Of a DNA stretch of 64,000 nt, positions 11,668-23,134 are shown in pieces. The DNA is taken from positions 124,001 to 188,000 of the forward strand of contig NZ_JACKZA010000001.1 in NCBI RefSeq assembly GCF_015100155.1, read 5' to 3'. Below the pieces are notes generated by a model that saw only the letters and a program-made list of their open reading frames with translations, ran no database searches and was not told where the DNA came from. The DNA is from Acidithiobacillus sp. HP-2. GTDB lineage: Bacteria > Pseudomonadota > Gammaproteobacteria > Acidithiobacillales > Acidithiobacillaceae. The position numbers and the translations under genes are program-made. How positions within the stretch are numbered: the first letter of the stretch is position 1; the number at the start of each line of letters is the position of its first letter.

Positions 11668-12921
11668 TTACAAATCCCCCCAATCCGGTTCAGCCAGACG
11701 GTATTGATCATTTTCATATTGATAGCGCCGTTCCCAGGGGCGCGGAGTGAGTTCCTCCCCGGTCTGCTTGATAGCCAGCACCTGATGCAACGCCGACCAG
11801 TTGCGCCAGAAGGCATAAGCGCAACCCGCCATGTAAATGGCCCAGATCCGGTAGCGTTTATCCCCGACCATGGCCGTAGCTTCGTCCTTATGGGCTTCCA
11901 GACGGTCCACCCAATGAATCAGGGTTTGGGCATAGTGTGGCCGCAGGTTTTCGACATCAATCACCTCAAGATTCTGTCCGGCCATATCCCGGACGAGGCG
12001 CCAGAGGTGGGGAATTTCACCATCGGGAAACACATATTTATCCATGAAATCACTGCCGGAATGATGTCCCGCCTCGTCGTCCTGCTGGCTGGCGGTAATG
12101 CCATGATTCATGACCCAACCACCTTCCTTGAGCACCCGGTTGATGACCTCAAAATATTCGGGTAACTTGGCCCGACCCACGTGCTCGAACATGCCGACGG
12201 ATGACACCTTGTCAAAATAATCGCGTTCGGGAATATCGCGGTAGTCCTGCAGACGAATTTCTACCCGATCGGCGAGGCCTTCCTTTTCAATACGCTCTTT
12301 GGCAAAGGCAAACTGCTCCTCACTGAGGGTAACGCCCACCCCCTGAATGCCATAGTGTTTGGCGGCCCAGGTCAGCAGGCCGCCCCAGCCACAGCCAATA
12401 TCCAGGAGTTTTTCACCAGGCTGCAGATGGAGTTTGCGGCAGATGTGATCCAGTTTCTGCTCCTGGGCAACATCAATATCTTCTTTGCCGGTTTTGAAAT
12501 AGCCACAGGAGTATACCATGTTGCGATCCAGCCAAAGCTTGTAGAAGTCGTTGGAGACATCGTAATGATAGTGAATAGCTTCCCTGTCCTTGGCTTTGCT
12601 GTGTAAGGCCTTGTGGAGAATGCCGGTTTTGGGCTTTTTGACTGGAAATGCGTCGCTGAGGCCTTCGGCAACAGCAAGAATGTCCTGGTAGCGTCCTTCA
12701 ATGCCGATAGTGCCTTCCACATAGCCTTCGCCCAGTACATCCAGAGCGCTGCCGGTGAGGAGCTGGGTAATGACGCTCGCTGATTTGAGATGCATGGTGA
12801 CCAGTGTGGGTTCATCGAAAGCATATTCGTGACCATCCCAAAAAATGACCCGTAAGGGCAGCGCCTTGTCATTGAGGCCTTTTTTGACATGATCCAGAAA
12901 GTTACTTCGTAAGTCTTTCAC
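11668..12921 (-). CDS. cfa: Cyclopropane-fatty-acyl-phospholipid synthase
   Basis: A 417-residue SAM-dependent enzyme that adds a methylene bridge across cis double bonds of membrane phospholipid acyl chains. The N-terminal lipid-binding region is followed by the SAM motif LLDIGCGWGG at about residues 172-180, the FEHVG block, and a C-terminal YRIWAIYMAGCAYAF segment typical of the family. Translation starts at a GTG (12921) with GGGAGGA about 8 nt upstream. Cyclopropanation lowers proton permeability and is a known acid-stress response, consistent with an acidophile. It appears monocistronic; a 150-bp gap with no clear element separates it from the HEAT-repeat gene. Confidence 0.95.
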   Translation of the reverse strand: MKDLRSNFLDHVKKGLNDKALPLRVIFWDGHEYAFDEPTLVTMHLKSASVITQLLTGSALDVLGEGYVEGTIGIEGRYQDILAVAEGLSDAFPVKKPKTGILHKALHSKAKDREAIHYHYDVSNDFYKLWLDRNMVYSCGYFKTGKEDIDVAQEQKLDHICRKLHLQPGEKLLDIGCGWGGLLTWAAKHYGIQGVGVTLSEEQFAFAKERIEKEGLADRVEIRLQDYRDIPERDYFDKVSSVGMFEHVGRAKLPEYFEVINRVLKEGGWVMNHGITASQQDDEAGHHSGSDFMDKYVFPDGEIPHLWRLVRDMAGQNLEVIDVENLRPHYAQTLIHWVDRLEAHKDEATAMVGDKRYRIWAIYMAGCAYAFWRNWSALHQVLAIKQTGEELTPRPWERRYQYENDQYRLAEPDWGDL

Positions 12922-13071: not shown

Positions 13072-13473
13072 TTATGCAAGGCGCAATGATGTTGATGTAT
13101 TCAACGCTTCTTCTGCGGCGACCCTGACGGCATGTGCTGCGTGATGGCTTAATCCCTGCAGCGCGGAAACTTTTTCCGGGCTATCCGGGACACTTTTTAT
13201 GGCGCGGATGACGGCCAGCCCCTGTATAACATCTACGGGGTAAGACATTGCGCATTCAGCAAGAGGGCCTGCCGCTTCCGCATGGTTCTGATTGGCGAGA
13301 CTGAGTATGGCCCCCATTCTTACTTCCGAATGGGGATTTTTGAGTGCCCAGATCAGACGATCATAATAAGGGGTTTGTCGTTCCCAGGCCTCAATGTTGC
13401 GACCACAGGCCGGACAAATCTCTACAGCAACCGGAATTTCAGCGAAGCAGAGCGGGCAGTAATGATGATTCAT
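13072..13473 (-). CDS. Zinc-ribbon HEAT-repeat protein
   Basis: A 133-residue protein with an N-terminal zinc ribbon (CPLC near residue 6 and CPAC near 20) followed by HEAT-like helical repeats (LIWALKNPHSEVRMGAILSL, then Ala-rich helices up to the end). Such small HEAT proteins are usually protein-protein adaptors. Its ATG overlaps the DUF190 stop (ATGA), so it is the last gene of the hyf-crcB unit. No specific function is known; a role in assembly or regulation of the preceding complex is only a guess from position. Confidence 0.8.
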   Translation of the reverse strand: MNHHYCPLCFAEIPVAVEICPACGRNIEAWERQTPYYDRLIWALKNPHSEVRMGAILSLANQNHAEAAGPLAECAMSYPVDVIQGLAVIRAIKSVPDSPEKVSALQGLSHHAAHAVRVAAEEALNTSTSLRLA

Positions 13474-13787
13474 GCGCAGCCGCAGTCAGCTTCCCAGCGC
13501 AGAATGTGATTGCCGGGTACCAGTTCGAGCAGGTGGGGCATGACCGCATCGACGGTCTCCGGCTCGTCGAAAAACTCCAGTACCAGGGGCAGATGCACGT
13601 TCAGACGCAATACATCATCGGCATGCACCACGCCCTTGCTGCCAAAGCCGGCAATACCCCGGAAGGCGGTGACCCCATGCACTTTGTACTGATCGTGGAG
13701 CATACGAAATATCTCCTCCATCAAATTGTGGCCATCGTGTTTATCGCCTTCTTTGATGTAAATACGGACTACGGAAACGCTGGTCAT
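13470..13787 (-). CDS. DUF190 family protein
   Basis: A 105-residue protein of the DUF190 family, which has a PII-like ferredoxin fold and is frequently encoded beside crcB. Visible blocks are VVRIYIKEGDKHDG at the N terminus and KVHGVTAFRGIAGFG in the middle, both characteristic. It ends in Cys-Gly-Cys-Ala. The ATG at 13787 follows AGAGGTGAAAATC. It lies 14 nt after crcB and overlaps the HEAT gene by 4 nt. DUF190 proteins may act as nucleotide-binding regulators of the fluoride channel, but this is not proven. Confidence 0.88.
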   Translation of the reverse strand: MTSVSVVRIYIKEGDKHDGHNLMEEIFRMLHDQYKVHGVTAFRGIAGFGSKGVVHADDVLRLNVHLPLVLEFFDEPETVDAVMPHLLELVPGNHILRWEADCGCA

Positions 13788-13801: not shown

Positions 13802-14179
13802 TTAAATACTGCGGGATACCCAGGCACCGGCAAATGCCGCTGCCACACACAGGAACAGTGAAGAAAACATATAGAGCAAACCTTTCAGTGCTTCGCCGTT
13901 TTCAAAAAGAACGAGAGTCTCCAGGGAGAAGGTCGAGAAGGTGGTGTAAGCGCCAAGGCCCCCGGTAAGCATGCCTGTACGTAATTCCGGACTGAGAGAA
14001 ATACGTTCGAGAGTTTCAAAAAAAAGAAAGCCCATGATGAAACAGCCCATGACGTTGATACTCAGGGTTGCCCATGGAAAACCCCGCCCGAATACCGTTT
14101 GGACCAGCAGACTCTGTCCGTATCGTGCCCAGGCACCCAAAACGGCAAATATGGCGATGAAGCCGAAAGTGGCAAACAT
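13802..14179 (-). CDS. crcB: Fluoride channel CrcB/Fluc
   Basis: A 125-residue, four-helix dual-topology fluoride channel that exports F- and so protects against acid-driven HF uptake. The family blocks GAWARYG near residue 16, TLSINVMGCF near 38 and GGLGAYTTFSTFS near 73 are present; the Asn and the Phe/Thr-Ser residues line the pore. AAGGAGTAGAA precedes the ATG. It follows hyfB by 17 nt, so it should be expressed from the hyf promoter. No fluoride riboswitch lies in that gap. Confidence 0.95.
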   Translation of the reverse strand: MFATFGFIAIFAVLGAWARYGQSLLVQTVFGRGFPWATLSINVMGCFIMGFLFFETLERISLSPELRTGMLTGGLGAYTTFSTFSLETLVLFENGEALKGLLYMFSSLFLCVAAAFAGAWVSRSI

Positions 14180-14196: not shown

Positions 14197-16161
14197 TTAA
14201 ATATAAAAAACACTCGCAAAAATAATGATGAGCATTACTCCGATATAGGCCAGATAGGCATTCAGGGAACCATTTTGTAAGGCCAGTCCCAGCCGGTCAC
14301 TCATGATCTGCACAAAGCGCACCACAGGACGAAATAACCAGGGACCGAATACCGGGGCCTGACTGTAATCAAAGCGCAATTCCCGCACAAAATAATCCCG
14401 CTCGGTATGGCTTCTTCGGGTATTGGTACGGGGACGGTAGACAAAGCTGTAGAATTCACGCAAAGCGTTGGAAAAAGCCAAAGCCGTGACCGCATTATTG
14501 GCCGGTATCTGGCGTAATCCGTGACCCCAGACCGGCACCCGTTTGCGCCCCTGACGAAGATGGCTCCAGCCCAGCATGGCTAATGGAATCAGGGATAGTA
14601 GCAGTCCCATCAGCAGCAGCAGCGGAGGTGAAATAAAGGCAAAATGAAAACGCAGAGGGATCAGGATTGGTCCTTTCACCATGCTGGCCAGGGCGGCGGG
14701 AACAGCGGGCCAGTTATCGTCGGCGAGAAAGCCGAGGGTCCAGGGCAGTGCTGCAGCATACCCCAGAACCAGCAGGCCCAAAGCAAGAATGGGCCAGCGT
14801 CCGGTAATACGGTGTTGATTTTCCTCGCGACCCAGTAAACCCAGGCCGAAAACCTTGATCATGGTGGCCAGGGCGATGGCGGCAGTCAGTGCCAATCCCG
14901 CTCCACCCAAAGCCAGGGTGACTCTGGCGGCAGAACTGGTCAGATGAAAATCCTGAAAGACCGTCTGGAATAAATACCATTCTCCCGCAAACCCGGCAGT
15001 AGGCGGCATGGCGGCCAGACTCATGGCGCCCAGCAGTGCGCCGATGCCCAGGGTCCAGGGAGCGAGTGCCAGCACCCGGCTCTGCGCTATGTGGTAATCG
15101 CCACGCACACTGGCGACCCGGTCGGCACTCAGCATCATGCTGCCTTTGGCCAGGCTGTGACCGCCCAGATGAATGAGACCTACGGTCCAGGCCAGGGTGC
15201 TGAGCATATTCAGACCGTCAGCCCGGAACAGGGAGGCGGCACCCAGCGCGACGACCGCTAATCCGGCGTTTTCAGCCGTGGAAAAAGCCAGCAGGCGGCG
15301 CCAGTCTTCCTGCTGAAAGGCATATAAAATGGCCAGAATAGCGGTGATGGTGCCCAATGCAACCAGTAAAATACCGGTGCCGGTAGCGCTGCTCCGGGGT
15401 AGCCAGTCGAGCACGGCCCGGCCCAGGGCAAAATAGGCCACATTGAGGATGATACCGGATAATAATGCCCCCGATGCGCCACTGCCGCTACTGTAGGCAC
15501 CGGGATACCACTCGTAGAAGGGCAAAATGCCCAGCTTGGCACCAAAGCCAATGATGAACAGAATGGCAATGCCAAAGGCCGCTGATCCATAAGTTGCCCA
15601 GGACCCCGCCCAGGCCGTAAATTCAGTATTCCTGGCTCCCAGTAAGAGCAGGCACAGCAATAAAGCGACAGCGCCAATCTCGAGCAGGGCCAGCATATAC
15701 AAATTGGATTGACCGCTTTTTTCACGATTCTGCAGTCCGTCGGCAAGCAGCATGATGGCGCCGCCAAAACTCAAAAATTCCCAGGCAATCAGAAAGGCGA
15801 TCCCTTCCTGTAAACCGGCAACCCCGAGACTTCCCAGTAAAGCCAGCCCTGCCCCGGACATCCAGATGCCGGGATTTTTGGCGCGGCTGGGGGAAAGGAA
15901 GGCGGCCAACGCGGCGAGTCCACCCCAGAAGACCAGCCAGGCGGCAGCCGCCTGCAGGTGCCAGGTCACGGGAATGCTGCCCAGGGACCAAAGCTGTCCA
16001 GTGTCAGGGCCAGATCCTGCTAGCAGACTGAGGACGCTGCCCACCAGTATCGCCACGGTGCCAAAAATGAGGGCAATCCGTGCGCCGGAACTGAGACGCA
16101 GCAGACCGAGAATAATGGCGAGAACAAAAAGCAGTGCGCCCAGCAGGAAACTATTGAGCAT
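14197..16161 (-). CDS. hyfB: HyfB/HycC-like proton-translocating antiporter subunit
   Basis: A 654-residue polytopic membrane protein of the NuoL/M/N (Mrp antiporter) superfamily, comparable in size to E. coli HyfB. It has more than a dozen hydrophobic segments; the central region holds the antiporter-type block KLGILPFYEWYPGAYSS, followed by LLAFSTAENAG and HLGGHSLAKG, where lysines and histidines serve the proton path. The ATG has CAGGAGG upstream and overlaps the hyfI fusion gene by 11 nt. It is the second antiporter-like subunit of the complex with HyfF. Ion specificity cannot be read from sequence. Confidence 0.92.
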   Translation of the reverse strand: MLNSFLLGALLFVLAIILGLLRLSSGARIALIFGTVAILVGSVLSLLAGSGPDTGQLWSLGSIPVTWHLQAAAAWLVFWGGLAALAAFLSPSRAKNPGIWMSGAGLALLGSLGVAGLQEGIAFLIAWEFLSFGGAIMLLADGLQNREKSGQSNLYMLALLEIGAVALLLCLLLLGARNTEFTAWAGSWATYGSAAFGIAILFIIGFGAKLGILPFYEWYPGAYSSGSGASGALLSGIILNVAYFALGRAVLDWLPRSSATGTGILLVALGTITAILAILYAFQQEDWRRLLAFSTAENAGLAVVALGAASLFRADGLNMLSTLAWTVGLIHLGGHSLAKGSMMLSADRVASVRGDYHIAQSRVLALAPWTLGIGALLGAMSLAAMPPTAGFAGEWYLFQTVFQDFHLTSSAARVTLALGGAGLALTAAIALATMIKVFGLGLLGREENQHRITGRWPILALGLLVLGYAAALPWTLGFLADDNWPAVPAALASMVKGPILIPLRFHFAFISPPLLLLMGLLLSLIPLAMLGWSHLRQGRKRVPVWGHGLRQIPANNAVTALAFSNALREFYSFVYRPRTNTRRSHTERDYFVRELRFDYSQAPVFGPWLFRPVVRFVQIMSDRLGLALQNGSLNAYLAYIGVMLIIIFASVFYI

Positions 16162-16942
16162 ATTGGCCTCCTGTTACTTTTTGCGGCATGCGTTCTACCA
16201 GAAGCAGCAGGGCATGAATGAGTGCTGCCGGATTGGGTGGACAGCCCGGCAGCCAGATGTCCACCGGGAGAATGCCTTCCAGTCCCGATCCTCCGGCATA
16301 ACCCTCATCCATGGGCGCGCCTGAGACGGCACAGGTGCCGGTAGCCATGACACTACGTGGTTCGGGCATGGCTTCCCAGGTGGCCAGCAGTACGTCGTGC
16401 ATGGGTGCGGTTACGGGTCCCGTGACCATCAGCAGGTCGGCAAAACGCGGTGAGGGCGTAAAGAAAATGCCCAGTCGGTGCAAATTATAAAAGGGATTGT
16501 CCAGCGCACTGATTTCGGACTCGCAGGCATTGCAGGAACCGGCGTCCACATGGCGAATGTGCAGACTGCGGCGCTGGCTGGCCGCAATGCGTTTGCGAAG
16601 GTCTGCGGCCTCAGCACTTTCCAGTGCCGCTGACCAGATGAGATCACTGCGCTGACGCACGCCAAAAGCCCAGTCGTAGGAACTTTGCATGGCCCCCTCA
16701 GGGCATTCCTCCACGCAACGCTGGCAGACAATACAGCGCCCATAATCGATCACCGGTTCGCCATCCACCTGATGAATGGCCTGAGTGGGGCAGCTCTCCA
16801 CACAAAGATCACAACCGCTGCGGCAGGCCGCGATATCCAGGCGCGGCATTCCCAATACCCCTTCCTGACCATCGGGTCCACTTTGGGGCCAGCGGGTAGC
16901 AGCCTTACCGGCTTTAAGTCCTGTCCAGGTCCATAATGGCAT
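16151..16942 (-). CDS. hyfI: Ferredoxin-HyfI fusion: 2x[4Fe-4S] domain plus NuoB-like small subunit
   Basis: A 263-residue fusion of two proteins that are separate in E. coli hydrogenase-4 (HyfH and HyfI). Residues about 33-90 form a two-cluster ferredoxin: C-x3-C-x2-C-x3-CP in the first site (an extra residue versus the usual spacing) and CIVCQRCVEECP in the second. From about residue 125 the NuoB-like domain follows, with the proximal cluster ligands in SCNACESE, TGTCAVSG and PGCPPNP, all four Cys present. It should pass electrons within the peripheral arm. AGGAGA precedes the ATG. It follows hyfG by 9 nt and overlaps hyfB. Confidence 0.9.
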   Translation of the reverse strand: MPLWTWTGLKAGKAATRWPQSGPDGQEGVLGMPRLDIAACRSGCDLCVESCPTQAIHQVDGEPVIDYGRCIVCQRCVEECPEGAMQSSYDWAFGVRQRSDLIWSAALESAEAADLRKRIAASQRRSLHIRHVDAGSCNACESEISALDNPFYNLHRLGIFFTPSPRFADLLMVTGPVTAPMHDVLLATWEAMPEPRSVMATGTCAVSGAPMDEGYAGGSGLEGILPVDIWLPGCPPNPAALIHALLLLVERMPQKVTGGQYAQ

Positions 16943-16951
16943 GATTTTCTC

Positions 16952-18445
16952 CTAGCGGTCGCAACCGGCAATGGTGAGGCCGAAGCTTGCTTCGTTAATG
17001 GCGTAATCCATCATGTTGGTACCGTGTACCGTCAGTGGAAACACCCGCCAGTTGGAAAACGAGGGCGATTTGATTTTGACCCGTTGCAGGCGTCCATCCT
17101 CAATGCGGACGGCGTAAATCAGCGTGCCTCGCGGGGTTTCGGCCCAGCCCAGGCCCTGCTGTGCTCCGCCTGGCACGTCGAATTCCGCATGCACAGGACC
17201 GGCTTTGAGACGACCCGAAGCCTGTACCAGCAGGGCAATGGCTTCCCGCAGGGCTTCCCCACGAACATCACTACGGGCCATGGCATCACCTTTCTGGCGC
17301 ACTGGTACGTTGAAACGTAATTTGTGGTAAGCCGCATAAGGATGGTCCCGGCGCAAATCACGATCGAGCCCGGAAGCGCGGGCGACGGGACCGGTAGCCC
17401 CCTGATCAAAAGCGGCACTTGGCGAAAGTACGCCGGTGCCCATCAGGCGATCCAGGTGGGTCGCCGTTTGCTGCAACCGATCCAGATAAGCCTCGCCTTC
17501 ATCAATGATGGGCTCCAGAGCATGGGCCAAATGCTCGGCCTGCAAGTCCCGGCGGAGCCCACCTACCCGCAGCAGGCTACGTAAATAGCGGGAACCCGTT
17601 AATTCTCCGGCCAGTTGTTTGACTTTTTCTTCCATCAGGAAGCCGGTGGCGGCACCGACTTTGAGGGTCGTGGTTTTGGACAGCTGTCCAAAATAGTGGA
17701 AATGGTTATAGAGACGCTCCAGTTCCACAAGGATCACCCGCAGCAGTTGCGCCCGGGGCGGGACTTCAATGCCCCAGGCATTTTCAACGGCCTGACAATA
17801 GGCGAGAGCATGGCAGGCACTGCCCACTCCGGAAACCCGCTCGGCCAGGTAAACACTGCGCTGCGCGTCCTGGCCGGCAAAACGGGCTTCCATGCCCCGG
17901 TGCTTGAAAAACAGGCGCGGATGGTAGTGAAGAATGGCCTCACCAATATAGGAATAGTGAAATTCACCAGTTTCCACCACATCAGCACGCACCGGCCCCC
18001 AGTACAAATCCTGCACCTGATCCCCCTGCACTTCGGGCATGGTGGGGGGCTGGTAAAGGCCGCTCAGGTGACCTGAACTGCCGTTTATGCCGAGGGGCGG
18101 CTGGGGAATGCTGAAACCTTCGTGAATAATGAGGGGAAAGGGTTCGGGATGCCCGGTAAAATGCAGACCGCCCAGGTCCTGCATTTCCCGTTCGTACCAG
18201 CCCAGGAGCGGTACAAGCGCTGCGAGCGAAGGAATGGTATCCGTGCCGCGTAATTCCAGCAGGACAAATTCGGGATTGTCTTTCTGGCTCAACAAATAAC
18301 GCACGACGCATTGCTGCCCTTCCCAGTCATGCCAGGCCATGAGGAAACGCATCTGCTGATCCAGGCATTCCTGAGCGACTGCTGCAAGCTGCCCCGCAGT
18401 GACAGAGCGAATGCTGCAATTATTCATGGGACTGTGCATATTCAT
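16952..18445 (-). CDS. hyfG: HyfG-like large subunit (NuoCD-like) lacking the NiFe site
   Basis: A 497-residue protein with an N-terminal NuoC-like domain and a C-terminal NuoD/HycE-like domain. The family block at about residue 200 reads ERVSGVGSACHALAYCQAVE; in hydrogenases the S and second G here are the cysteines of the L1 CxxC motif. At the C terminus NEASFGLTIAGCDR replaces the DPCxxC motif. All four Ni-ligating cysteines are therefore absent and the protein should not activate H2. The ATG at 18445 overlaps the hyfF stop (ATGA); a longer frame to 18535 would intrude into hyfF. This pattern fits the Ehr (energy-converting hydrogenase-related) complexes. Confidence 0.92.
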   Translation of the reverse strand: MNMHSPMNNCSIRSVTAGQLAAVAQECLDQQMRFLMAWHDWEGQQCVVRYLLSQKDNPEFVLLELRGTDTIPSLAALVPLLGWYEREMQDLGGLHFTGHPEPFPLIIHEGFSIPQPPLGINGSSGHLSGLYQPPTMPEVQGDQVQDLYWGPVRADVVETGEFHYSYIGEAILHYHPRLFFKHRGMEARFAGQDAQRSVYLAERVSGVGSACHALAYCQAVENAWGIEVPPRAQLLRVILVELERLYNHFHYFGQLSKTTTLKVGAATGFLMEEKVKQLAGELTGSRYLRSLLRVGGLRRDLQAEHLAHALEPIIDEGEAYLDRLQQTATHLDRLMGTGVLSPSAAFDQGATGPVARASGLDRDLRRDHPYAAYHKLRFNVPVRQKGDAMARSDVRGEALREAIALLVQASGRLKAGPVHAEFDVPGGAQQGLGWAETPRGTLIYAVRIEDGRLQRVKIKSPSFSNWRVFPLTVHGTNMMDYAINEASFGLTIAGCDR

Positions 18446-19905
18446 GGCTGCACCATAAATGCCTGTTGGAAAAATCCCCACAAGCCACTGGGCCACCAAA
18501 GTCCCAGTACCAGCACAGGAATCAGGGCCAGCCACATGGGTAGGCTATTCCACAGGGATAAATTGAGGGTGGGCACTTCATCGGGTTCCGGTTCCGGACC
18601 CCAGATCATGCGCCGGAAATGATTCATGAAGGCAATAAATATGAGAATGAGCAGAATGGCCATCACCCAGACTGCCCAAGGGTTGGGGCTGAGAATGCCA
18701 CCCCGCAAAATGGTCAGCTCCGATAAAAACAAGCCGAAGGGCGGGGCTCCGGTAATAGCCACAGCACCCAGTAACCAGAGAGCGCCCGTCACCGGATAGT
18801 AGCGCAGTACCTGACGCATTTTACTCATGGACTTGGTGCCGTAAGCACGCATCATGTTGCCCGCCCCGAAAAACATCAGGGATTTATTCATGGAGTGATT
18901 GACCATGTGATACATGGCTCCGGCAAAGGCAATGGGGCCACCAAAGCCGAAACCAATGGCCAGTACTCCCATATGTTCCAGGGAGGAATAGGCCAGCATG
19001 CGCTTGGCGCCATCCTGACGAACGATAAACAGGCCTGCCACAAAAAGGGATATTACGCCCAGTACCAGTAGTGCAGTGTGCCCCATGAGGCTGTAACCGC
19101 CACTGTCGACAATGGATAAAAACCGATAAATCCCCAGCAGGGCAATGTTGAGCAAAGCACCGGAAAGCATGGCGGACACCGGGGCCGGGCCTTCGCTGTG
19201 GGCATCAGGTAGCCAGGTATGCATGGGGGCGAGACCCACCTTGGTGCCAAAACCCACCAGCGTCAGGAGAAAAGCCAAAAACAAAAGGGTTTCGGGAACC
19301 TTGGGGGCGATTTCACGGAGATTGGCCCAGGTCAGGGCATAAGTCGGGCCGAGCACAAAGGTGCCACCCCAGTAAAAAAGGATAATACCCAACAGGGCCA
19401 GGGCCAGCCCCGCAGAAACGACAATCAGGTACTTCCAGGCCGCTTCGATGCATTCGGCTTCTTTCTCGAAACCCACAAGAAAAGCGCTGACAATGGTCGT
19501 GAAATCAATGGCAATCCAGAAAATACCGGGATTGTTCATCAACGGCGCAATGAGCATGGTCAAGGCAAAACCCGCCTGCAGGGCATAGTATTTGTGCAGT
19601 CGGGGTTTTTCTTCGGGCAGCAGGCGCATGTAGCCAATGGCGTAAATGGACGCCAGCAGATAAACCAGGCCCACGCAAAACAGCACCCAGGCCCCCAGAG
19701 GGGTCAATAAAATGTATTGCTCTCCGGTGACCAGAGCCTTATCGGGAACGGCCACGAGAATCGCCAGAGTCAGGCCGAAAACTGCTATGGAAGTCAGCAG
19801 GTTGAGATATTCGGCCAGATGCGGCAGACGCAGGGCGAGCATCAGAATGATGGCGACGGCGGGGATGATCCAAAGTGCGGCAATCAGTGCATCAAAATTC
19901 ACCAT
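18442..19905 (-). CDS. hyfF: HyfF-like antiporter-type membrane subunit
   Basis: A 487-residue NuoL/M/N-type membrane protein similar to HyfF of hydrogenase-4. It contains the characteristic block GLAPMHTWLPDAHSEGPAPV at about residues 222-241, SSLEHMG near 305 and HMVNHSMNKSLMFF near 332, with the histidines and lysines of the proton channel. About fourteen hydrophobic segments are visible. GGTGGG precedes the ATG. It sits 3 nt after hyfE and overlaps hyfG, as expected for stoichiometric assembly of one complex. Confidence 0.93.
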   Translation of the reverse strand: MVNFDALIAALWIIPAVAIILMLALRLPHLAEYLNLLTSIAVFGLTLAILVAVPDKALVTGEQYILLTPLGAWVLFCVGLVYLLASIYAIGYMRLLPEEKPRLHKYYALQAGFALTMLIAPLMNNPGIFWIAIDFTTIVSAFLVGFEKEAECIEAAWKYLIVVSAGLALALLGIILFYWGGTFVLGPTYALTWANLREIAPKVPETLLFLAFLLTLVGFGTKVGLAPMHTWLPDAHSEGPAPVSAMLSGALLNIALLGIYRFLSIVDSGGYSLMGHTALLVLGVISLFVAGLFIVRQDGAKRMLAYSSLEHMGVLAIGFGFGGPIAFAGAMYHMVNHSMNKSLMFFGAGNMMRAYGTKSMSKMRQVLRYYPVTGALWLLGAVAITGAPPFGLFLSELTILRGGILSPNPWAVWVMAILLILIFIAFMNHFRRMIWGPEPEPDEVPTLNLSLWNSLPMWLALIPVLVLGLWWPSGLWGFFQQAFMVQP

Positions 19906-19908
19906 GGC

Positions 19909-20589
19909 TTAACCCACCAGCTTTTGCAGGCCACGACTGCTGGTTGTACCGGCATGGGTCTGGAGGAATCGGACCAGCATGCCGAAGGCCATGACGATTG
20001 TCAGCAAATCAAAGATGATCACCAGCTCAAGCAGGGCGGGCATACCCGGAACCAGAATCTGTGAGCCCAGAAATATTCCGTTTTCGATGACCAGCAAGCC
20101 AAGAATGTGGCTGATAGCCTCCGAACGCAAAATCATCATCAAAAAGCCGATGAGTTTCAGGCTGAACATGCAGGTCAGGGCCAGCACGGCAATATTGTCA
20201 GTCAGATGAAGGGCAACACCGAGTTGCCTGGATACCTCATAGGAAAAAATCACCAGTGCGGCACCGATAATCATGCTGGAAGAAGGTTTCAGCAGGGGGG
20301 TGAATTCGCGCTGAATATCCAGTCGTTTGACCAGTCGGAGGACCAGATAGGGTAAAAAGGTGCCCCGAAACAAGGCCGTCAATGCCGCAATAATATACAG
20401 CTCGGGATAATGTCCATAGTAGCCAATGGATGCAGAAATGGCCGCAATGGTCCAGGATTCCGCCGCAAAAGCATAAACATGATTTTTCAGCCAGTGTGAA
20501 GCGAGCATGACAAAAGATAAAACCAGCGCGAGGATCGCCAGCAGGCTGAATAATGAGGTGGCCAGCGGACCGAGATGAAATATCAGCAT
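19909..20589 (-). CDS. hyfE: HyfE-like membrane subunit
   Basis: A 226-residue hydrophobic protein similar in size and position to HyfE of hydrogenase-4 (about 216 residues). HyfE combines features of NuoK. The glutamates within hydrophobic stretches (FAAESWTIAA near residue 42, LVIENGIFLG near 167, ALLELVIIFD near 185) are typical of NuoK-type proton-path helices. GGAGCGACCC precedes the ATG. The gene is 9 nt downstream of hyfC and 3 nt upstream of hyfF. Identification relies on the operon order plus these motifs. Confidence 0.88.
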   Translation of the reverse strand: MLIFHLGPLATSLFSLLAILALVLSFVMLASHWLKNHVYAFAAESWTIAAISASIGYYGHYPELYIIAALTALFRGTFLPYLVLRLVKRLDIQREFTPLLKPSSSMIIGAALVIFSYEVSRQLGVALHLTDNIAVLALTCMFSLKLIGFLMMILRSEAISHILGLLVIENGIFLGSQILVPGMPALLELVIIFDLLTIVMAFGMLVRFLQTHAGTTSSRGLQKLVG

Positions 20590-20598
20590 GGGTCGCTC

Positions 20599-21540
20599 CT
20601 ATAGTTGGTCGGCAACAATGGCCAATACGGCAAAAAGAAAAGACAGCGCCAGGGGCTCCTGATAGCGATAAAAGCGCAGACGGGACTGCATGGTATCGAC
20701 GCCCACCATAAGCAGGCCGATCACGCCGTATTTGGCCAGGATGATCAGCAGGGCCAGGAGCACTGACGGAAAGCTGCCAGTGGTGGACAAACCCCAGGGA
20801 AACAGAAATACATTGAGAAAAATCGTGTAAAAAATGAACTGTTTCATCCAGCTTGCCCATTTCAGCAGAGCCAGCAGGGGGCCGGAATATTCCAGGATGC
20901 GCGCCTCATCAATCATGTAGATTTCATAGGGGATCGTGGAATGAATGGGCAAGCGGTCAGTTTCTACGGTCAGCAGAATGAAAAAAGCCAGAATCAGGAA
21001 AATATGGGCGGGACTCCAGTAGGCTACCGGATTTTTGGCCAACAGATGATTGGCGACAAAAGGCAGCATGGAATGGTCCAGAAAAGTGATGCCTACAAAT
21101 ACCAGGATCAGCGTCGGTTCGGCGAGAATGCCGAGCATGACTGCGCGGCTGGAACCCAGGCCACCGAAGGGCTGGCCGGTATCCAGGCCGGCCAGCAGGA
21201 TAAAAAAGCTGCCCAGGGTCAGAATCAGCCCGCCCCCCAGAATGTCGCCCATGTCCGAAAGCGGCAGGGGGAAGTTGGTCAGCACCGGAATGAGCATCGG
21301 CACGATGAGCATGGCGGTGAACGCAACTACGGGTGCCCAGAAGAAAACCCAGGTGGCAGATTCGGGTACCAGCAACGACTTGTTGAACAGTTTCCAGAGA
21401 TCGCGATAGGGCTGGAAAATGGAAGGTCCCTTGCCGCGCTGGACACGCTCCTCCACGGTGGTGATGAAGCCATGCAGCAGTGGTGCCAGAAACATCACGG
21501 TGAGAACCTGCCCACACTGCAGGACGATGTCGCCAAGCAT
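20599..21540 (-). CDS. hyfC: HyfC/HycD-like NuoH-type membrane subunit
   Basis: A 313-residue NuoH-like subunit that connects the peripheral arm to the proton pump. It shows the hallmark RVQRGKGPSIFQPYRDLWKL at about residues 32-51, the conserved loop that meets the large subunit in complex I and group 4 hydrogenases. Other blocks are DTGQPFGGLGSSR near 120 and TVETDRLPIHSTIPYEIYMI near 207, equivalent to the NuoH quinone/E-channel region. AAGGGGAATCT precedes the ATG. It is the first gene of the operon, about 110 nt downstream of a good promoter. Confidence 0.94.
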   Translation of the reverse strand: MLGDIVLQCGQVLTVMFLAPLLHGFITTVEERVQRGKGPSIFQPYRDLWKLFNKSLLVPESATWVFFWAPVVAFTAMLIVPMLIPVLTNFPLPLSDMGDILGGGLILTLGSFFILLAGLDTGQPFGGLGSSRAVMLGILAEPTLILVFVGITFLDHSMLPFVANHLLAKNPVAYWSPAHIFLILAFFILLTVETDRLPIHSTIPYEIYMIDEARILEYSGPLLALLKWASWMKQFIFYTIFLNVFLFPWGLSTTGSFPSVLLALLIILAKYGVIGLLMVGVDTMQSRLRFYRYQEPLALSFLFAVLAIVADQL

Positions 21541-21659
21541 AGATTCCCCTTATAAGTTTAACTAACGACCAGTTACCCAACCTTGCAGTCGGGATCTGTA
21601 GGAGTCATTAGCCTATAAAGGCGGTTATTGGGCGGAATCCATCGCCATAATTTGTGTTG

Positions 21660-21688
21660 ATGATATGCAGAGACAGAAAACGGGTCAA
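21660..21688 (-). promoter_or_regulatory. Sigma-70-type promoter of the hyf operon
   Basis: On the minus strand TTGACC (21688-21683) and TATCAT (21665-21660) are separated by exactly 17 nt. They lie about 120 nt upstream of the hyfC ATG, leaving a leader of roughly 110 nt. The -35 box is only 14 bp from the left inverted repeat of the IS110-family element, so the insertion stopped just short of the promoter but may have displaced upstream regulatory DNA. Confidence 0.6.
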
Positions 21689-21913: not shown

Positions 21914-23134
21914 TTATGCCGGATCGGGCAGGAATCCGAACTTGATCAGCTTTTTAATCCAGCGTGCGGCATTACGTTGTACGCTCAAGGCTTCATAATC
22001 GGTGGCGGCGTCCCGGTAATATGTGCCGCGAGAGAGCATGAAGTAGATGATGCGCAGCATTTTGTGGGCCAAGGCGATAATGGATCGTTTATGACCTCGG
22101 CGCACGACCAGGTTCTGGAATTTGGTGCGCAGGGCGCATTGGGTGCGACTGGCGGCATGGGCGCATTCGCACAAGACGCGGCGCACGTAAGGATTCCCTT
22201 TCCGGGTGCGACCACTTTTGCGCTTACCGGCCGATTCGTTGTTGCCCGGGCACAGACCGGCCCACGACGCCAGGCGATCGGCACTCCCGAAGGCCTTCAT
22301 ATCGTCCCCGATTTCCACCAGCAATAAGGCAGCACCTATAGTATCCACTCCCGGCAAGGTCTGCAGCAACGCCAGTGCATGCTGTTGCGGGGCCAAACCG
22401 TCCAGCAAGCGGGTATCGAAGCGCGCGATCTGCGCTTCCAGGGCTTCGATATGGTGCATCACTTCGTCCAGAACAAAACGATGGCAGGCACTCAAATCGC
22501 CCTGCAACGCATCCAGAATCTCCTCCCGGCTGGCCTTGAGGCGATGGCTCGCCAGGGACAGTACCTCCTGGGGCGTGGCGCCCTGAAACAGCGCTTTGAT
22601 CATGGCGCGTGCCGATTGACCATGAATGTCGCTGACCACCACGCCCAGGCGGATCCCCCCGTCGGTCAGCACCTTGTGTAGCCGGTTCTTTTCGGAGGCC
22701 AGCATGCCGACCAACTTCTGGCGTTGGCGGGCAATCAAGCGTAATTCCCGCAGTGGCGCCGGCGGGACAAAGGAACCGCGTAACAAGCCCGCGCGCGCCA
22801 GCATGGCCAGCCATTCCGCATCGCCAACATCGGTTTTGCGCCCGGGCACCTGTTTGACGTGACGGGCATTGACGACCTGGGCACGAATGCCGACCTGCTC
22901 CAAGGCTGCATAGGGGCTTTTCCAGTAAATCCCAGTACTCTCCATGACCACTGCATCCGGCTGCCAGGTCGCACACCAATCCGCCAAGGCCCGACGGTCT
23001 TTCTTGAAGCCGCCAAATTGACGGCGCTCTACCTCCACAGTGCCATCCGGGTTGCCTATGATGGCACAGGCCGTGACTTGTGCCTGATGAATATCCAGGC
23101 CGATCACACGTTGAAAAATGGGTTTCAGTTCCAT
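21914..23134 (-). CDS. IS110-family transposase (DEDD recombinase)
   Basis: A 406-residue IS110-type transposase. The N-terminal RuvC-like DEDD domain shows GLDIH near residue 13, VMESTGIYW near 63, and KTDVGDAEWLAML near 100-112 with the two conserved aspartates. A coiled middle region leads to the C-terminal Tnp domain with LASWAGLCPGNNESAGKRKS near 290-310, which contains the conserved serine of this family, and a following RRVLCECAHAA block. The frame is intact, so the element could be active. AGGAAAGCC lies just upstream of the ATG. It is oriented like thiC and hyf. Confidence 0.95.
   Translation of the reverse strand: MELKPIFQRVIGLDIHQAQVTACAIIGNPDGTVEVERRQFGGFKKDRRALADWCATWQPDAVVMESTGIYWKSPYAALEQVGIRAQVVNARHVKQVPGRKTDVGDAEWLAMLARAGLLRGSFVPPAPLRELRLIARQRQKLVGMLASEKNRLHKVLTDGGIRLGVVVSDIHGQSARAMIKALFQGATPQEVLSLASHRLKASREEILDALQGDLSACHRFVLDEVMHHIEALEAQIARFDTRLLDGLAPQQHALALLQTLPGVDTIGAALLLVEIGDDMKAFGSADRLASWAGLCPGNNESAGKRKSGRTRKGNPYVRRVLCECAHAASRTQCALRTKFQNLVVRRGHKRSIIALAHKMLRIIYFMLSRGTYYRDAATDYEALSVQRNAARWIKKLIKFGFLPDPA

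Follow-up and report, generated by a model that had tools for sequence, protein, structure and literature searches.

Organization of the locus

The window (the whole stretch of DNA analyzed, 64,000 nucleotides) carries on its minus strand six close-packed genes in the order H-E-F-G-I-B that are separated by short gaps or overlap. They are preceded on this strand by a fluoride riboswitch aptamer (RF01734), 52 nt from the start codon of the leading, NuoH-like gene, which is the sole copy in the 3.2 Mb genome. At the 3′ end of the operon, the HyfB-like gene is followed by crcB, a DUF190 gene and then a HEAT-repeat gene. The features are as follows.

21660..21688 (-), sigma-70-like promoter TTGACC-17-TATCAT immediately 5′ of the riboswitch; a consensus match only (10/12), such matches being no more frequent in the region than in shuffles
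21592..21655 (-), fluoride riboswitch aptamer RF01734, operon leader; Rfam 54.7 bits, cut-off 34, E 2.1e-12
20599..21540 (-), H, NuoH/HycD-like membrane subunit; PF00146; closest solved chain HycD 7z0s_D
19909..20589 (-), E, HyfE-like membrane subunit; NF008556 hydrogenase 4 membrane subunit, below cut-off
18442..19905 (-), F, HyfF/NuoM-like antiporter-type subunit; PF00361; best solved match MbhH 6cfw_H
16952..18445 (-), G, HyfG/HycE-like large subunit, a NuoC+D fusion that lacks both the Ni ligands and the C-terminal maturation peptide
16151..16942 (-), I, HyfI/NuoB-like subunit with N-terminal 2x[4Fe-4S] ferredoxin domain; PF01058 and Fer4
14197..16161 (-), B, HyfB/HycC-like antiporter-type subunit; PF00361; closest solved chain HycC 7z0s_C
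13802..14179 (-), CrcB/Fluc fluoride channel; PF02537 and TIGR00494 above cut-off
13470..13787 (-), DUF190 protein; PF02641; start inferred from sequence
13072..13473 (-), HEAT-repeat protein; PF13646; recurrent neighbor
11668..12921 (-), cyclopropane fatty acid synthase; may belong to this fluoride island as well

An IS110-family transposase gene (21914-23134) is inserted between thiC and the operon, 5′ of the promoter match of the latter. The ThiC-like gene (25334-23448, minus strand) is preceded by an ordinary TPP riboswitch (RF00059, 25402-25498).

The large subunit has lost the Ni site

The HyfG-like large subunit is a 497 aa protein (18445 to 16952, minus strand) in which Pfam recognizes Complex1_30kDa, the L1 part of NiFeSe_Hases, and Complex1_49kDa. 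The closest sequence identified by phmmer was HycE of E. coli formate hydrogenlyase (2.1e-48), and HycE also was the closest structure to the AlphaFold model of the protein (pLDDT 87.7; 7z0s_E, Z 44.2, rmsd 2.3 over 490 residues). The Ni site was assessed by the alignment proposed in a preliminary description of the locus, using as reference genuine HycE/HyfG proteins encoded in other genomes (L079 and L085; DRVCGICGFTH ... GSLDPCYSCTDR). No Ni cysteine is left at either L1 or L2: the aligned residues are Ser205 and Gly208 (L1) and Thr491 and Gly494 (L2). The claim that all Ni-binding cysteines have been lost therefore is borne out. The preliminary description had given the ligand positions as Ser/Gly/Ser/Leu, of which the L1 pair is correct, whereas the L2 pair arose from misalignment. 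A cysteine near L2, C495, is not conserved among relatives.

One scan of 84,980 genomes recovered 63 relatives with 48-99% identity. The carriers belong to Acidithiobacillus, Thiomonas, Nitrobacter, Rhizobiales, Dyella, Fulvimonas, Rhodanobacter, Caballeronia, Paraburkholderia, Martelella, and Acidobacteriaceae. All 63 relatives show the Ni-less L1/L2 pattern, with the family motifs ERxSGxxSxxH and INEASFGL, and the L2 stretch MMDYAINEASFGLxxAGxDR is near-invariant across Proteobacteria and Acidobacteriota. A C-terminal maturation extension also is absent from 63/63: every sequence stops at the ..DR position, while L079 and L085 continue for ~30 residues. As the same motifs recur in orthologues of related genomes and in the 63 loci from two phyla, sequencing error at these positions is excluded.

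Genome-wide checks were done as family searches in the window genome (3.2 Mb, 100% complete). The proposed search for NiFe maturation genes covered HypD, which is missing from this genome and 11 further relatives with an orthologue (12 of 16 in total). Of the 31 carriers that are not Acidithiobacillus, 27 likewise have no HypD. A search with PF00374 yielded no other [NiFe] large subunit in the window genome, and the operon includes no FdhF-type gene or formate dehydrogenase.

Related clusters have been named hydrogenases (PMC3826726, PMC2621215), and 'formate hydrogen lyase' is listed at face value among genes associated with fluoride riboswitches (PMC2864571, PMC11139923), with the second of these sources treating the gene set as a real formate hydrogenlyase of anaerobic metabolism. 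The window operon very probably is of the type listed under this name in both. The E. coli enzyme does provide the best sequence and structure matches for most proteins of the complex, and formate hydrogenlyase-1/hydrogenase-4 includes the closest solved homologues of the large, HycD-like and HycC-like subunits. However, the window complex differs from it in having no Ni site, no C-terminal peptide and no formate dehydrogenase in the operon, and most carriers are without maturation genes. Moreover, A. thiooxidans does not grow on H2; the same 2018 study described a six-gene cluster in this species with large subunits that have 'no L1 and L2 signature' (marked unpublished) and left the function open (PMC6002666). 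A genuine formate hydrogenlyase or hydrogenase-4 is barely credible against this evidence, and the earlier warning that either label would be wrong was well founded: there are no Ni ligands, no maturation peptide and no hypD. Judged from their sequences, the proteins described here are incapable of formate hydrogenlyase chemistry.

The redox chain and membrane arm are conserved

The HyfI subunit possesses four NuoB-type cysteines, as the preliminary description had observed, in addition to eight in the fused 2x[4Fe-4S] domain, and all 12 are invariant in 63-64 sequences. The proximal-cluster cysteines are C137, C140, C204, and C234, with the CxxC spacing hydrogenase-like. In the membrane arm, residues K222, H337, K341, and E396 of HyfF, K209, H335, K339, and E394 of HyfB, and the glutamates of NuoH are at least 95% conserved. 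The large subunit retains E158, which aligns with the proton-transfer glutamate of hydrogenases (MbhL E21 by residue numbering). The quinone-head residues of complex I, Nqo4 H38 and Y87, are missing: Val157 and Gly206 occupy the aligned positions. The conserved charged residues are no proof of proton pumping by the complex.

The dN/dS values of all six subunit genes are 0.01-0.17, indicative of strong purifying selection, and the order H-E-F-G-I-B is kept across the family loci. Taken with the conservation of the Fe-S cysteines and membrane-arm residues, these features indicate that the complex is retained as a working redox and membrane machine. Simple decay is ruled out by the dN/dS values and by conservation across two phyla, in agreement with the earlier view of the cluster as intact and well packed.

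The complex shares with complex I the common core fold and membrane arm (large subunit versus NuoCD, Z ~40), but has neither the NADH module (NuoEFG) nor the NuoD quinone residues; separate NuoD and NuoCD loci are present in the window genome. The MBS/MBX complexes of Pyrococcus furiosus similarly are Ni-less and without Nqo4 H38 and Y87 (PMC7684303). In MBS, two of the four Ni cysteines remain, the MbhL E21 position has no glutamate, and the proximal cluster has three cysteines (PMC7684303), whereas the window complex has no Ni cysteines and has kept both the glutamate and four cluster cysteines.

In a phylogenetic tree, the 18 family members included form one clade with support of 100/100. 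The sister clade (98/96) is another Ni-less type (ERFAGASAFAH / ILATWGLSIAEND). Several Acidithiobacillus genomes carry it in tandem with the window type, and in these it is equipped with a separate fluoride riboswitch. Such tandem complexes are found at L040:1699-9833 and in L041, L042, L049, L050, and L087-L092, where a DUF211 gene and a riboswitch of their own often accompany them; the L040 copy has a HyfI ferredoxin domain that has lost several cysteines. The tandem complex is missing from the window genome.

Separate from the window family is the clade of the common Ni-less type (SGDSTVAY / NKSFNxSYSGHDL), which had no riboswitch nearby. A second Ni-less complex of the window genome (G000), on contig C11, falls in this common clade (SGDTTVGY / NKSFNLSYSGHDL; L053:12357-18823 and L007:1625-8782). 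It sits 3′ of genes read from their sequence, and not by family search, as cbbM-cbbQ-cbbO (form II Rubisco). A CO2 or bicarbonate role (DAC or NDH-1MS-like) was suggested by this Rubisco-linked complex and by the hyf cluster of A. caldus, which adjoins a carbonic anhydrase gene (PMC3826726). The idea was rejected for the window complex: genes for carbonic anhydrase or Rubisco were not observed in the vicinity of the operon, and the riboswitch suggests a different role. DabA is encoded elsewhere in the genome. The C11 complex may fit the idea, and a CO2-linked role for it is possible.

The family is linked to fluoride riboswitches

Eight of the 63 relatives are cut by a contig end before the first gene, leaving 55 whose 5′ end is intact. 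In 53 of these 55 loci a fluoride riboswitch is located 41-496 nt upstream of the first gene (median 99), and in the remaining two, L108 and L129, it is ~1.3 kb upstream on the same strand. The riboswitch model R1 was used for this count. RNAalifold gave only six pairs for the model, which therefore acts mostly as a sequence model, and Rfam scans of 13 loci agreed with it. No match at E<0.1 was obtained in 27 control sequences (best E 0.23) that comprised 18 Ni-less non-family clusters, two HycE-type operons, and the Rubisco-linked Ni-less complex and nuo loci of the window genome. Ten genomes have both a riboswitch and a non-family complex, and in all ten these are located apart. A chance occurrence of the riboswitch in the window is ruled out by its being the one copy in the genome and by its conservation.

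The covariance model match suggests that the window riboswitch would bind fluoride. In the predicted fold of the free RNA, which outperforms shuffles by no more than a modest margin (z -2.1), the 5′ strand of the aptamer pairs with the ribosome site and AUG, a fold such as a translational ON switch would need; the riboswitch may be a switch of this type. It is very likely that the complex is both fluoride-controlled and Ni-free.

The genes that neighbor family loci encode CrcB, DUF190, enolase, CLC, and cyclopropane fatty acid synthase. Elsewhere in the islands, genes located 3′ of fluoride riboswitches specify enolase, a CLC channel, DUF190 (immediately 3′ in L137), cyclopropane fatty acid synthase, and a dynamin-like GTPase; a HEAT protein gene is in this position in L123. 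The cyclopropane fatty acid synthase of the window groups with the CMAS proteins encoded at other family loci, and perhaps effects a membrane change against HF. The CMAS gene is immediately 3′ of a fluoride riboswitch in L103 (L103:1070-2518) and adjoins the operon in the window (11668-12921). Proteins of ~580-700 aa likewise are encoded immediately 3′ of fluoride riboswitches at L116:4695-, L121:8451+, L126:1329+, and L134:5101-; Pfam identifies the L121 and L126 proteins as dynamin-like GTPases, and the L116 and L134 proteins look alike in sequence.

The preliminary description matched the complex to the Ehr idea of an electron-driven, proton-pumping complex with a substrate yet to be assigned, a reading that involves no special link to fluoride. 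Ech-hydrogenase-related (Ehr) complexes have been described from Geobacter, Nitrospira, and Margulisbacteria (PMC6349859, PMC7894505, PMC10284858, PMC12342949). The resemblance is real: the Ni-less group-4-like large subunit and the NuoL-, HyfE-, and NuoH-like membrane subunits match the published descriptions. However, the window family is its own clade in a tree whose comparison group was the common SGD/NKSF type, and it is set apart by the ERxSGxxSxxH / INEASFGL motifs, the fusion of ferredoxin domain and small subunit, and riboswitch adjacency in 53/55 loci as against none of the controls. With fluoride-resistance genes as neighbors in addition, an Ehr complex devoid of any such role is very unlikely.

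A proposed role in fluoride tolerance

Not only in Acidithiobacillus but also in dozens of further Proteobacteria and Acidobacteria, the operon follows a fluoride riboswitch, and the complex therefore probably helps cells to survive fluoride rather than to make hydrogen. We consider it reasonably likely that this member of the complex I/formate hydrogenlyase superfamily is a fluoride-inducible, Ni-free, redox-driven proton pump that offsets the proton influx associated with HF. The proposal builds on directly supported features, namely the Ni-free large subunit, missing HypD, conserved redox-chain and proton-path residues, and conserved riboswitch linkage, to which it adds a presumed electron donor and acceptor, the direction in which electrons would flow between them, the pumping of protons, and a benefit to cells exposed to fluoride.

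At low pH, HF would diffuse into the cell and release H+ and F-. Fluoride would bind the riboswitch and turn on translation of the NuoH-HyfE-HyfF-HyfG-HyfI-HyfB genes, and then that of the CrcB gene. As HF enters and CrcB or CLC expels F-, each cycle would bring a net gain of one proton. A low-potential donor, probably ferredoxin-like, would pass electrons to the 2x[4Fe-4S] domain of HyfI, from which they would move via the N2-type cluster to the former NiFe pocket and most likely to quinone. Most carrier genera are aerobes, which is the reason for this guess at the acceptor. The energy released would export protons via the HyfF/HyfB/NuoH membrane arm, and the pumped protons would counter the acid load and the loss of proton-motive force from HF entry plus fluoride export. 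In line with this scheme, HF acidifies the cytoplasm, the need of fluoride exporters for upkeep of pH and proton-motive force has been made as a general point, and Na+/H+ antiporters are the next commonest riboswitch-associated genes after the exporters (PMC11139923). A proton pump serving fluoride tolerance is our best guess and appears moderately likely.

Two other roles under fluoride were weighed. The complex might instead act as a redox bypass that keeps electrons moving, for example from ferredoxin to quinone, while fluoride blocks enolase, phosphatases, and ATPase, with any pumping secondary. Enolase is a recurrent neighbor, every Fe-S cysteine is conserved, and metabolic shifts do occur under fluoride (PMC11139923). 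Nevertheless, the membrane arm is fully kept with its conserved proton-path residues and no conserved dehydrogenase partner is encoded adjoining the family loci, which makes a bypass doubtful.

The complex itself also might be a primary redox-driven exporter of F- or HF in which the antiporter-type subunits and the vacated NiFe pocket couple electron flow to export. The tight riboswitch coupling and the presence of two antiporter-type subunits would suit such a pump. Furthermore, a passive Fluc channel would perform poorly in an acidophile whose membrane potential is weak or reversed. However, the lysines and glutamates of the membrane subunits are the same as in ordinary proton paths, and CrcB already is encoded beside many copies of the operon. 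We know of no fluoride-binding signature in antiporter-type subunits. To our knowledge no primary active fluoride pump has been described previously, and the complex, if it were one, would be the first and would give the complex I superfamily a new function. This reading is improbable.

A fluoride microarray of A. ferrooxidans reportedly was produced by Ma et al. in 2016. Within the literature searched, the coverage of which did not extend to Baker et al. (2012), no paper joined the missing Ni site with the riboswitch, and an earlier notice is possible. The results correct two published readings, that of the Acidithiobacillus clusters as a group 4 hydrogenase or formate hydrogenlyase and that of the riboswitch-associated 'formate hydrogen lyase' as part of anaerobic metabolism. 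Hydrogenase-like complexes without Ni are widespread and have no known role, and here a whole clade is labeled by its trigger: as a fluoride riboswitch accompanies nearly every copy, the function is directly testable. If the complex is a proton pump as favored above, fluoride tolerance in acid environments, including bioleaching operations and acid soils, would make use of a dedicated respiratory complex.
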